Assembly (NCBI RefSeq): GCF_001483135.1
Contig: NZ_LNAL01000007.1
Coordinates: 682,001-746,000, forward strand
Source: Solirubrum puertoriconensis
Lineage (GTDB): Bacteria > Bacteroidota > Bacteroidia > Cytophagales > Hymenobacteraceae
Reading direction: 5' to 3'
Length of the DNA: 64,000 nucleotides
The translations under genes were made by a program, and so were the position numbers. The notes under the pieces were generated by a model. The model was not told the DNA's origin. It saw only the letters and a list, made by a program, of their open reading frames with translations, and made no database searches. Positions 58,587 through 63,981 of the stretch are shown here, piece after piece (the first letter of the stretch is position 1; every line of letters begins with the position of its first letter).

Positions 58587-58604
58587 ACCGACTCTCGCTT
58601 GCCA

Positions 58605-58663
58605 AACACCCCAGCCCGGCGGCTGCTTTGCACAGGCAGCCCAACCGGGCTGGGGTGTTTTTG
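58605..58663 (+). terminator. Terminator of parC
   Basis: Long stem AACACCCCAGCCCGG/CCGGGCTGGGGTGTT with an internal hairpin, followed by T's. Confidence 0.9.
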
Positions 58664-58724
58664 TAGCTTTTCGGAAGTGTTTGCGTATCTTACCTTACGC
58701 ACACTCATCAGCAACGAGTCACAC

Positions 58725-59555
58725 ATGCTTCGGAAGTTTGCTTGCCGCCTTGCTGCATTGCCGCGCCTCCTGGTAGTAGGGGGGGCTTGCCTGTGTGCGG
58801 CGAAGAGTGCCCGAGCTGGCGACCCCGTTAAGACCGAGCCTCCCTCAACGCTTGATGTGCCAGCCTTATTAACCGAGGCCCGCTCATTGCAGCAGCAGTA
58901 CCGCGAATCGGCTGCGCTGGCCCGGTACGAGCAAATCCTAGGTGCTTTTCCGCGCAACTACGAAGCCCTTTGGCAGGCAGCGGTGCTCAGCGCCCGTATC
59001 GGCAGCCGCTACACCGATGAAAGCCAACGCGGTGCTTACTACACCGCCGCGCGTCAGTACGCCGATAGGGCATATGCTGTGAACCCCAAAGGGGGCGAAG
59101 CTAATTACGCTGTGGCTTTGTCGTTGGCGCAACAGGCTACCGTGCAGAGTGCCCGCTATCGGCTTAGCCTCTACAAAAGCATGAAGCCGTACGTGTACCG
59201 GGCTGTGGAATACAGCCCCCAACTGCCCGATGCCTGGCAGGTGCTCGGCCGTTGGAATTACCGCGTGGCGCACCTGAACTTGGTTGAGCGGGCGTATTAC
59301 CGGGTTTTCTTGGGCGGCACACCTGCCGGCGCTTCGAATACCAAAGCAATGGATGCGTTGCGCAAAGCCCGCGCATTGGATCCTTGCCGCATCCAATACT
59401 GCTACGATTTAGCTCGCGTGTACTCCAACCAGGGCTTGCGTGAGCCGGCCATGCAAGTGCTTCAAGAAGCCGCTTCGTTGCTGCCCATGACGAGTGAGGA
59501 GCTGGAAATGAGCCGTCGTTGCCGCCGCTTGCTCGACGAGTTGGAGAAAGGTTAG
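58725..59555 (+). CDS. Exported RMDN-like TPR protein
   Basis: 276 residues from the ATG at 58725; signal peptide to about residue 32. TPR helices: LTEARSLQQQYRESAALARYEQIL, YADRAYAVNPKGGEANYAVAL, and the block PDAWQVLGRWNYRVAHLNLVERAYYRVFLGG, which resembles the signature of RMDN/FAM82-type proteins (a eukaryotic family with bacterial homologues). Function in bacteria is not known. It lies upstream of the L,D-transpeptidase genes and may belong to the same envelope group. Confidence 0.8.
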   Translation: MLRKFACRLAALPRLLVVGGACLCAAKSARAGDPVKTEPPSTLDVPALLTEARSLQQQYRESAALARYEQILGAFPRNYEALWQAAVLSARIGSRYTDESQRGAYYTAARQYADRAYAVNPKGGEANYAVALSLAQQATVQSARYRLSLYKSMKPYVYRAVEYSPQLPDAWQVLGRWNYRVAHLNLVERAYYRVFLGGTPAGASNTKAMDALRKARALDPCRIQYCYDLARVYSNQGLREPAMQVLQEAASLLPMTSEELEMSRRCRRLLDELEKG

Positions 59556-59681: not shown

Positions 59682-61121
59682 ATGAGCCACTTGCTACCTG
59701 TTTCTTGGCTTCGATTCGTGGGGCTGGGCTTGTTGCTTTGTTGGGCGACTTATACCCAAGCGCAAACCAATGAGGGCACTACTGCACTCATCAAACAAAC
59801 CTTATCGAACGAGTCAGCCTCAGCACTGCCGGCTACCCTTAATGCACAAGTGCTTCGGTACTACGCAGCGCTGAATTTTGAGCCTAGCTGGACAACCGAC
59901 AAGAGTGCTACCGCATTGGCGAAAGAAGGCTTAAAAATACTGCGGCGCACACCGGAATTTGGGTTCCAATCAATTGATTATAAAGTTCAAGAGCTGGCGG
60001 TTAACCTCGATTCTTTTGCTATTAGCCCAGATTCGGAAGTACGCTTGCACCGCCGAGTAGCCGTCGAATTGCAGCTCACAGCAGCCTTGCTGGAACTCGG
60101 AGCGCACTTGCGGCGGGGTAGGGTGCACCCGCAAACACTGCTGCCAACCACCTGTGAGCCGGATTCGGTGTTCGACCCCGTACAATGGCTGCTAGGTGCT
60201 CGGCAATTAAACCAATTAAACCAACAAGTGGCGGCCTTGCAGCCCACCACTCGCAGCTACATCCGCTTGCAGTGGGCTTGGCAGAAGCTGCTGCGCGCCG
60301 ACACCGCCGCAGCGCGCAAGGTAGCAGGTCAAGTAGCTGTTAACCTGGAGCGGTTACGCTGGGAACCTAGGGGCGACTCGGCCTACCTCCTCGTAAACAT
60401 TCCGGCCTACACGTTGGAAATCGTGCGAGGGGCCAAGGTGGTGCGCAGCTTTCGAGTGATTGTTGGCGATGCCCAAACTCCTACGCCTGAGGTTTACAGC
60501 CATCTACGCTTCTTTCAAACTTCCCCCGAATGGAAGGTGCCGCGCTCTATCGCTCTAAATGAGATACTGCCGCGTGTGCGTCGGAATCCCGGCTACTTGG
60601 CATCTCATAATTACGTCTTATACAATCAGCATGGCGAGCGTGTCAACCCATTTAAGGTCGACTGGAAACAAATAACACCCGAAACGTTTCGATATAGTGT
60701 TCGGCAAACCGCTTGCTGCGACAATGCCCTCGGCAACGTGGTGTTCCGGTTCCCTAACCCGCACGACATCTTCGTGCACGATACCCCTGTCCGAAAGCTG
60801 TTCAACGTACCTAGGCGCGCCCTTAGCCACGGCTGCATCCGATTAGAAAAGCCTTTTCAGCTAGCCGCTTTTCTGCTGCGCCGCGATTACGGCGACAAGG
60901 CTCCACGGCAAATCGAGCGAATGTGGGACAGCGTTTACGGGGGCTACAGCAAATATTTCGCCTTGCGCAACCCTATTCCAATCTACATCCGTTACCAAAC
61001 CTGCCACGCCGATAGCGGGCCAGAGCTGCGGGTTGTCCCTGATATCTATAAGCGTGATGCACTAATCCTGCAAGCCTTGCAGCAAGCCAGTCAGGAATAT
61101 CCTGCTGCCGCGGATAAGTAA
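59682..61121 (+). CDS. YcbB-like L,D-transpeptidase
   Basis: 479 residues from the ATG at 59682; signal peptide with cleavage near TQAQ. An N-terminal YcbB/LdtD-type scaffold region (about 30-220, RYYAALNFEPSWT, LGAHLRRGRVHPQTLLP) precedes a YkuD catalytic domain (about 230-400): VNIPAYTLEIVRGAK, FRFPNPHDIFVHDTP and the active-site SHGCIRLEKP with Cys385. It forms 3-3 cross-links in peptidoglycan. It is a full-length, intact copy; the next gene is a near-parallel copy interrupted by a stop. Start: the TTG at 59652 is less likely. Confidence 0.92.
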   Translation: MSHLLPVSWLRFVGLGLLLCWATYTQAQTNEGTTALIKQTLSNESASALPATLNAQVLRYYAALNFEPSWTTDKSATALAKEGLKILRRTPEFGFQSIDYKVQELAVNLDSFAISPDSEVRLHRRVAVELQLTAALLELGAHLRRGRVHPQTLLPTTCEPDSVFDPVQWLLGARQLNQLNQQVAALQPTTRSYIRLQWAWQKLLRADTAAARKVAGQVAVNLERLRWEPRGDSAYLLVNIPAYTLEIVRGAKVVRSFRVIVGDAQTPTPEVYSHLRFFQTSPEWKVPRSIALNEILPRVRRNPGYLASHNYVLYNQHGERVNPFKVDWKQITPETFRYSVRQTACCDNALGNVVFRFPNPHDIFVHDTPVRKLFNVPRRALSHGCIRLEKPFQLAAFLLRRDYGDKAPRQIERMWDSVYGGYSKYFALRNPIPIYIRYQTCHADSGPELRVVPDIYKRDALILQALQQASQEYPAAADK

Positions 61122-61311: not shown

Positions 61312-62751
61312 ATGCGTGTTCTTCGTCTGCCTTTCGTTTCGGTTCTTGTTCTGCTGTTTGTTGCGGCTTTGTCCGCCGCTGGTAAGTCGCGAGCAGTAAC
61401 ACTCTCGTTGCAGCAAGCCATTAAGCAGGATACAGTGCTGCTGCGCTCCAGCATCGCCACGGCTCCGGTTAATAAGCTCTACAACACCTTTGGTTACCAG
61501 CCCATCTGGACGGATAGCCTTGGCAATGCTAGCCTTGCCCAAGCCGCCGTCGGCTTGCTGAAGCGTGCGCCAGAGTTTGGCCTTATTTCAAACGATTACC
61601 TTACTGCACGTTTGTGCGAGCTGGTAGCAAGCCACACTGCCTCTACTACCAATGGTGAAGACCGTTACACAGCCACTGAGCGCCGCATTCAGCTAGACCT
61701 GCGCCTCACGGTTGCGATGCTTAGTTTCATCACGCACTTGCACAGTGGCCGACTGGAGCCCTATACCACCCAGCCCCTTGAGAAATGGGCCGCAAATGGC
61801 TTTGATGCGGCTGGTATAGTAGCCAAAAGCGTTGCCAACCCCACCGCAATGGTTCAAACCATTCTGGCCGTGCAGCCCCAAAGCCGCAGCTACGTTCGGT
61901 AGCAGTGGGCCTGGAAGCGCTTGTTGCAGACCGACAGCACCCAAGCCGCAGCCTTGGCCGGTAAAGTAGCCGTCAACCTAGAGCGGCTGCGCTGGGAACC
62001 CGCGGCAGACTCGGCCTACCTCGTGGCCAACATTGCCAACCAAACGCTGCAAGTAGTCCGTGGTTCTTCGGTCGTAAGCACGCACCGCATTGTGGTGGGC
62101 AAGCCCGAAACGCCTACCCCCGAGCTGGCTAGCCGCGTGCACTATTTTCAAACAGCGCCGGAATGGCGCGTGCCCGCCAGCATTGCTACCGGCGAAATGC
62201 TCCCCCGCCTGCGCCGCAACCCCGGTTACCTATCCGAAAACAACCTGCGCTTGTACGACTTGGCCGGTAAACCCGTGGATGCCCGTAAGGTAAAGTGGAG
62301 CACCGTGTCGGCCGACCGTTTCCCTTATCAGATTCGCCAAGCTGCCGGCGAGGAAAACGCCCTAGGCGGTATTGTGTTCCGATTTGCCAACGCCCACGAC
62401 GTGTTCTTGCACGACACGCCCGCGCGCAAAGCCTTTGCCCAACCGCAGCGCCTGCTCAGCCACGGCTGCATCCGCTTGCAACGCCCCGCCGACCTAGCAG
62501 CGTTTCTGCTGCAGCGCGATGGAGGCAACGATGCAGCCGAGCGTATTAGCCGTATGCAGAACAGCGTGGAGAGCAGCACGCCTAAGGTGTTTTCTTTGCG
62601 CACCTCCATGGCCATCCTTATCCGTTACCAAACCTGCGAGGTAGAGGGAAGCCAAATCAGGGTGCTCCCCGACGTGTATGGCCGCGATGCCGCCATAGCT
62701 GCAGCTTTAGCCGGCAGTGCCAATGGGCAACTGGTTGCCGCCGCCCAATAG
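61312..62751 (+). pseudogene. YcbB-like L,D-transpeptidase interrupted by a TAG stop
   Basis: A second copy of the preceding gene, the same length (480 codons) with one in-frame TAG at 61900-61902 (codon 197). Upstream part: signal peptide and scaffold (RVLRLPFVSVLVLLF; KLYNTFGYQPIWTD), ending RSYVR. Downstream part resumes in the same frame as QWAWKRLL and holds the complete YkuD domain (VFLHDTPARKAF, SHGCIRL with Cys at about 386). In the intact paralogue the same place reads RSYIRLQWAW, so Leu is replaced by the stop (TTG to TAG, one base). The 3' part alone would lack a signal peptide. A sequencing error or amber read-through is possible. Confidence 0.88.
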
Positions 62752-62811: not shown

Positions 62812-63981
62812 TTGGTGCTGCGCTTTTCTCGGTCATTGTTATCTGGGGTCACCTGTTCGCTGCTGATTAGCTGTGGCGATACTCCACCGCATGCGCAAAC
62901 CGAGAGCATGGTGAATCTGCGTACTGTTCGCAGTGGGCCCGATGTTCAGGCTGCCGAGCTGAACGGCGCAATTGCTAAGCAGCCACGTAACCCCGTGCTG
63001 TATGCCCGGCGCGCCAGCTTTCACCTAGCAGCCGGAAAAACCGATGCCGCCGTTCAGGACATCGATTATGCAATTGAGCTGGATGATGCTCCGGGCGAAT
63101 TTTACCTCACCAAAGCCCGTGCCTTGCGGGCCAAGGGGCAATTGCAGTCGGCCATTGCGGCTGCGGCCGAAGCCCAGAAGCGCGGCTACAACCCACCCGA
63201 GCTGCACTTGTTGCTAGCCGAAGCTAACCTCGCTGCCCGGCGATACGATAATTCACTGGATTACTTGGATCGGGTGCTGCGCGAACAGCCCGATAATGCA
63301 TCTGCCTTGTTCTACAAGGGCTTGGTTTACTCTGCGCTGCGTGATACGATACAAGCTCTTGACTACTTGCGTGCCAGCGTTGCTCGTGCACCTAAGCAGC
63401 CCGAAATCCTGCATCAGCTGGCGTACTTGCTGAATGCCAACCGCCAGCCTGCTATAGCTGCTGCTTATATCGAACGCGGCTTGCAGGCAGATAACAAGTA
63501 TGCAGCTTTATGGTACGATAGGGGCCGCGTGTTCGATCTTGCCGGTCAGTCGGACAGCGCTGTGCGACAATATGCACGCGCCATTCAGCTCGATACCACG
63601 CTATATCGTGCCGATTACCGCCTAGGTCTCTACTACTTCAAGGCCAAGCAGCATGCCAAGGCTATTCCGCTGTTGCGCCGGGCGCGGCGTCGCAGCCAAT
63701 ACCTGCCCAACTTAGGGGAGATGCTAGCCGAGAGTTACGAGTGGACAGGTCAAACCCAGCAAGCCTGGGTGGCTTATCGTCAGCTGGTTAAGCAGTTTCC
63801 AGGCGATAAACATTACACGTTTAAGGTATGGAAGGTTGGTCAGCGCTTACCTCAACCAATTCTGGATTCGCTCAAGGTGGTTTATGGCGCCCCGCCCATC
63901 CCGCGCCGGGCCCCAACTGTAGCGCCATCCACTTTCGATAGCCTGCCTTCGCGGGCTCCTGCGCTGCTTACCCCACGCTAG
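62812..63981 (+). CDS. TPR-repeat lipoprotein
   Basis: 389 residues, lipobox LLISC near the N-terminus (starts TTG 62812 or GTG 62815; no ATG). About six TPR units: RNPVLYARRASFHLAAGKTDAA, PELHLLLAEANLAARRYDNSL, ASALFYKGLVYSALRDTIQAL, AALWYDRGRVFDLAGQSDSA, YRADYRLGLYYFKAKQHAKA, NLGEMLAESYEWTGQTQQAW. A Pro-rich tail follows. It probably scaffolds an envelope complex; the partner is unknown. It ends 19 bp before the window edge, with CCTAGG next to the stop. Confidence 0.85.
   Translation: MVLRFSRSLLSGVTCSLLISCGDTPPHAQTESMVNLRTVRSGPDVQAAELNGAIAKQPRNPVLYARRASFHLAAGKTDAAVQDIDYAIELDDAPGEFYLTKARALRAKGQLQSAIAAAAEAQKRGYNPPELHLLLAEANLAARRYDNSLDYLDRVLREQPDNASALFYKGLVYSALRDTIQALDYLRASVARAPKQPEILHQLAYLLNANRQPAIAAAYIERGLQADNKYAALWYDRGRVFDLAGQSDSAVRQYARAIQLDTTLYRADYRLGLYYFKAKQHAKAIPLLRRARRRSQYLPNLGEMLAESYEWTGQTQQAWVAYRQLVKQFPGDKHYTFKVWKVGQRLPQPILDSLKVVYGAPPIPRRAPTVAPSTFDSLPSRAPALLTPR

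Follow-up and report, generated by a model that had tools for sequence, protein, structure and literature searches.

A probably recent nonsense mutation in an old YcbB-type L,D-transpeptidase paralogue of Solirubrum puertoriconensis: a probable incipient pseudogene

The window (the whole stretch of 64,000 nucleotides analysed here) carries at 61312-62751, on the + strand, a single YcbB-type L,D-transpeptidase reading frame with a Scaffold and a YkuD domain, interrupted by one in-frame TAG. We consider this gene (hereafter copy 2; copy 1 is the intact transpeptidase gene beside it) to be an incipient pseudogene, a reading to which we assign a probability of about 80%: an old, diverged and dispensable paralogue, long under purifying selection, would lately have been hit by one nonsense mutation. 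Translation would end after 196 residues; the most it could yield is an exported protein with the Scaffold but not the catalytic domain, while the catalytic half would either not be made or be made without export. The loss would be tolerated because copy 1 and another Scaffold/YkuD protein of the genome, L001, remain intact. We infer that no functional copy 2 protein is produced, that the stop arose recently and that losing the gene is neutral.

Results

Layout and domains of the interrupted gene

The features of the locus are as follows.

58599..59555, + strand: upstream flanking gene, the same neighbour in the five genus relatives compared
59682..61121, + strand: copy 1, intact YcbB-type L,D-transpeptidase (Scaffold, E 2.9e-20; YkuD, E 1.1e-22), 479 aa from the ATG at 59682
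61312..61902, + strand: upstream piece of copy 2, 196 aa, with a signal-peptide-like start (by eye) and a Scaffold domain (Pfam, E 1.2e-20), ending at the TAG
61900..61902, + strand: in-frame TAG in a Leu column, near the C-terminal edge of the Scaffold match (alignment, Pfam)
61903..62751, + strand: downstream piece of copy 2, 282 codons open, covering YkuD profile positions 2-139 of 146 (Pfam, E 4.6e-23)
61921..61923, + strand: TTG, the earliest possible restart codon past the TAG; its product would have 276 aa and no signal peptide (by eye)
62812..63981, + strand: downstream flanking gene, the same neighbour in the five genus relatives compared

The translation of copy 2 runs through 196 residues to the TAG and then through 282 residues to a normal stop at 62749-62751. 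The original prediction had located the amber codon correctly at 61900, with a slip of one base where it gave the codon as 61899-61901. Its statement that no other lesion is visible holds as well, as the translated frame of 479 codons contains no further stop or frameshift. When the two halves were searched apart, they matched the Pfam families Scaffold (PF20142) and YkuD (PF03734) with 75.0 and 82.9 bits, both exceeding the respective cut-offs of 24.6 and 23.4. The length of the frame and the presence of a curated domain on either side of the stop argue that the frame is real and not due to chance. The downstream piece retains an intact SHGCIRL motif, which fits the catalytic Cys motif of YcbB-type L,D-transpeptidases, HGCxR. 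The signal peptide was judged by eye from the translation; with this start, the Scaffold domain and the Cys motif all in place, copy 2 keeps the parts it had been predicted to keep. The signal-peptide-like start and the catalytic domain do not lie in one open frame, the TAG standing between them, and since the first restart codon (TTG, 61921) would give a product without a signal peptide, it is reasonable to expect, as predicted, that the downstream piece would be inactive in the periplasm.

The column of the TAG is occupied by Leu in all 21 aligned relatives, none of which has a stop there (0/21). A 22nd relative, G144, was represented in the alignment by its downstream frame alone; the upstream frame, read separately and outside the count of 21, also has Leu at this column. 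In copy 1 the matching residue is Leu 196, encoded by TTG at window position 60267, in agreement with the prediction, and the TAG of copy 2 is one base away from the Leu codon of some relatives.

The locus and the origin of copy 2

Both flanking genes appear to be TPR-like, and from the translations we take the order at the locus to be topoisomerase subunit, TPR gene, transpeptidase, TPR gene, thrS-like gene and infC-like gene. This order recurs, with one transpeptidase each time, in all five of the genus genomes whose gene order was compared (G002, G003, G005, G006 and G007, from a total of seven others). Neighbouring pairs of transpeptidase genes, sought from match positions at E <= 1e-60, were found in none of the seven. 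Copy 2 occurs in the present genome only among the genus genomes compared, and G005 and G006, whose genes are nearest to copy 1, contain no match that could be copy 2. Copy 1, residues 213-461 of which match YcbB (PDB 6ntw, E 4.9e-42), is the transpeptidase that this locus normally carries in the genus. Its counterpart there in G007 (L093:6800-6900) probably contains a frameshift, since the N-terminal part is encoded in a different frame.

Copy 2 had been described as a tandem copy aligning with its neighbour over the whole length. The full-length alignment stood; identity, however, is only 27.8% before the TAG (187 columns) and 53.2% after it (282 columns), and copy 2 belongs to an old paralogue lineage that lies beside the usual gene of the locus. 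In the tree, copy 1 clusters with the G005 and G006 copies (support 100/99), and the long branch of copy 2 (0.86) attaches at the base of a 23-sequence clade, at a point with weak support (84/54). The same pattern emerged from a tree of 27 rows, in which the copy 2 branch measures 0.97. A recent tandem duplication was rejected, as forcing copies 1 and 2 to be sole sisters costs 57.8 log units (p-AU 0.0002). The test also speaks against pairing copy 2 with the G003 copy (p 0.014); holding it with eight genus copies is not rejected (cost 0.6 log units, p 0.447), and its exact place is unsure because of the long branch. By these sequence comparisons, copy 2 is either an old diverged paralogue or a gene that was acquired, and no recent duplicate of its neighbour; the trees may reflect either loss of copy 2 in the relatives or its gain in the present genome. 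A scan of genome contigs gave two relatives only, a Sphingomonas MAG at 29% identity and, as the closest named hit, Hymenobacter sp. BT188 at 55%; the genome is Hymenobacter-like. Among the literature matches listed, none concerns this gene or YcbB-type genes in Hymenobacter, as judged from titles and abstract openings.

Selection on copy 2 and age of the stop

Comparison of copy 2 with seven related sequences gave pN of 0.31-0.34 against pS of 0.63-0.74, near saturation, after the TAG, and pN of 0.52-0.57 against pS of 0.68-0.78 before it. The catalytic half was thus constrained through most of the history of copy 2, and the Scaffold half only loosely; the weak constraint before the TAG counts against the pseudogene reading. 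In columns that are otherwise invariant, copy 2 deviates at 3 of 19 before the TAG and 6 of 82 after it, copy 1 at 3 of 19 and 2 of 78, and the other rows at 0-1 per part.

There are 131 one-base routes to a stop in the 479 codons of copy 2, so that about 44 stops would be expected per neutral substitution per site. Since the frame contains a single stop and no frameshift, the time it has spent without constraint is likely to have been brief, roughly 0.1 substitution per site at most. Such a short time contrasts with the end branch of copy 2, which measures 0.86-0.97 changes per column. It should also be noted, as a counterpoint to decay, that occasional readthrough would likewise leave the frame past the TAG undecayed.

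Intact and broken members of the family

Five YkuD matches were found in the genome: copy 1, copy 2, the intact L001 (with Scaffold, PG_binding_1 and YkuD domains), the short L005 and a third paralogue, which is broken.

L088:4470-5861 (G000:C6:816470-817861): third YcbB-type paralogue, broken, with a TAG and a TAA inside YkuD

The match to this paralogue (G000:C6:817109-817837) follows a single alignment frame with the two stops and no frameshift, and the frame of its relative in G006, 71% identical, is open. Across 204 genomes of the family, 101 places were listed as matching at E <= 1e-70, and six broken frames were found among the rows checked, which were those with short open frames or a reported stop. 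The six are copy 2, the third paralogue and frameshifted genes in G007, G065, G116 and G144, the last four having been picked for their short open frames. Seven further rows combine a long frame with a reported stop, and in every one of them that stop is where the gene itself ends. With the third paralogue broken and four relatives frameshifted, members of this redundant family are therefore lost repeatedly.

The breaks lie on the N-terminal side (G007, G116), between the domains (copy 2, G065, G144) or within YkuD (third paralogue). The frameshifts at L111:1465-1480 (G065) and L139:4610-4615 (G144) fall between the Scaffold and the catalytic domain, near the position of the TAG, which is probably a coincidence. 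A common break point between Scaffold and YkuD was considered and dropped, as it applies to only three of the six broken genes and was noticed post hoc.

Stop-codon usage and decoding of the TAG

In the genome 42 tRNAs were detected (RF00005), and ARAGORN named an anticodon for every one of them. The check for a suppressor tRNA proposed in the original prediction came out negative: none of the 42 detected tRNAs has a CUA anticodon, although the search would have missed an unusual tRNA scoring under its threshold. Release factor 1 is present, above its curated cut-off. In a sample of 464 kb (the window plus 20 stretches of 20 kb) subjected to a codon-usage scan, the 310 likely genes are closed by TAA in 162 cases, by TAG in 116 and by TGA in 32. 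Amber suppression was rejected on these three grounds, namely the lack of a CUA anticodon in the 42 tRNAs detected, the presence of release factor 1 and the ordinary use of TAG as a stop (116/310).

The scan also revealed 17 joints at which a stop separates two stretches in the same frame (10 TAA, 6 TAG and 1 TGA), for 11 of which we inspected 60 residues on each side, relying on the scan output alone for the other six. Fifteen appear by eye to be neighbouring genes, and only the window TAG and a TGA at L125:17610 look as if they lay within a gene, which disposes of a genome-wide, amber-specific interruption of genes within the 464 kb. The scan scores copy 1 at -0.04 and the N-terminal half of copy 2 at 0.09, so that some genes will escape it, as would frameshifts. 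At L125:17610 (G000:C6:1117610), a phosphoesterase-like ORF is apparently cut by an in-frame TGA; Metallophos is matched before it (profile positions 2-94 of 191) and Por_Secre_tail alone, at E <= 0.01, after it. By eye, the frame on both sides of this TGA seems to be one gene.

Discussion

Of the three explanations offered by the original prediction (very recent decay, readthrough of the amber codon and an assembly error), very recent decay is the best supported, in view of the single lesion, the prior purifying selection and the intact relatives. That the TAG is a sequencing or assembly error, copy 2 being intact in the living strain, we regard as unlikely. A single base parts the TAG from the codon of some relatives, as an error would have it, yet the alignment of the third paralogue stays in one continuous frame across two in-frame stops, and another gene is apparently cut by a TGA (L125:17610). 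The lesions are, moreover, substitutions and not indels, the latter being the typical errors of long reads, and the assembly, of 4.8 Mb in 8 contigs, is 99.92% complete.

Trace readthrough, with the TAG throttling expression so that a little full-length exported enzyme is made, is about as improbable. Both halves of copy 2 still match their domain profiles well, and, according to PMC11126739, the mean signal of TAG reporters in E. coli, relative to wild type, is 0.49% (18 C) and 0.80% (25 C) in rich medium and 0.72% and 0.17% in minimal medium; at 37 C, however, the values drop to 0.03% and 0.02%, respectively. The same source ties a G after the stop to more readthrough and cites earlier studies that found termination to be favoured by T and C. 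In copy 2 the following base is C, and the five bases 5' of the TAG include two G and two T, so the context gives no clear push either way. The lack of a CUA tRNA among those detected, together with release factor 1 and the normal use of TAG as a stop, argues against readthrough, as does the absence of the stop from the aligned relatives (0/21). Finally, the residues inserted at stops are, according to a partly ambiguous legend in that source, mostly Gln, Tyr, Trp or Ala, against the invariant Leu here.

A functional split, in which the Scaffold piece would act on its own and translation of the catalytic piece would resume from the TTG at 61921, seems very unlikely to us. The TAG does lie at the edge of the Scaffold match, and the G065 and G144 frameshifts likewise fall between Scaffold and YkuD, but the restarted product would, by eye, lack a signal peptide. 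The remaining broken genes of the family are hit at other points (on the N-terminal side for G007 and G116, within YkuD for the third paralogue), and six breaks compared post hoc are too few for a pattern. More doubtful still is the idea that the amber codon acts as a temporary brake, the gene giving mostly an exported Scaffold-only protein and rare readthrough traces of the full-length enzyme; the Scaffold-only protein might then attach to partners or to peptidoglycan and work against the intact enzyme of the tandem.

Read as an incipient pseudogene, copy 2 offers a clean snapshot of early gene loss in a redundant enzyme family, in which a second paralogue of this genome is further along. It also calls for caution in annotation, where copy 2 should neither be split into two genes nor be taken as a sign of amber recoding. 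Beyond these two points, the case is an ordinary one.

Copy 2 shares YkuD and Scaffold with YcbB-type (LdtD-like) L,D-transpeptidases such as PDB 6ntw, from which it differs in that its Scaffold and catalytic halves are parted by the TAG. PMC7918605 describes in-frame stops in bacteria as widespread, with dN/dS below 1, and mostly short-lived, and uses dN/dS to argue that many such genes are not pseudogenes, which counts against the present reading. Copy 2 resembles the nonsense pseudogenes or short-lived stops described there in having one in-frame stop in an otherwise conserved frame, intact relatives and a stop that is not common to the 21 aligned relatives, and no difference from those cases is evident.
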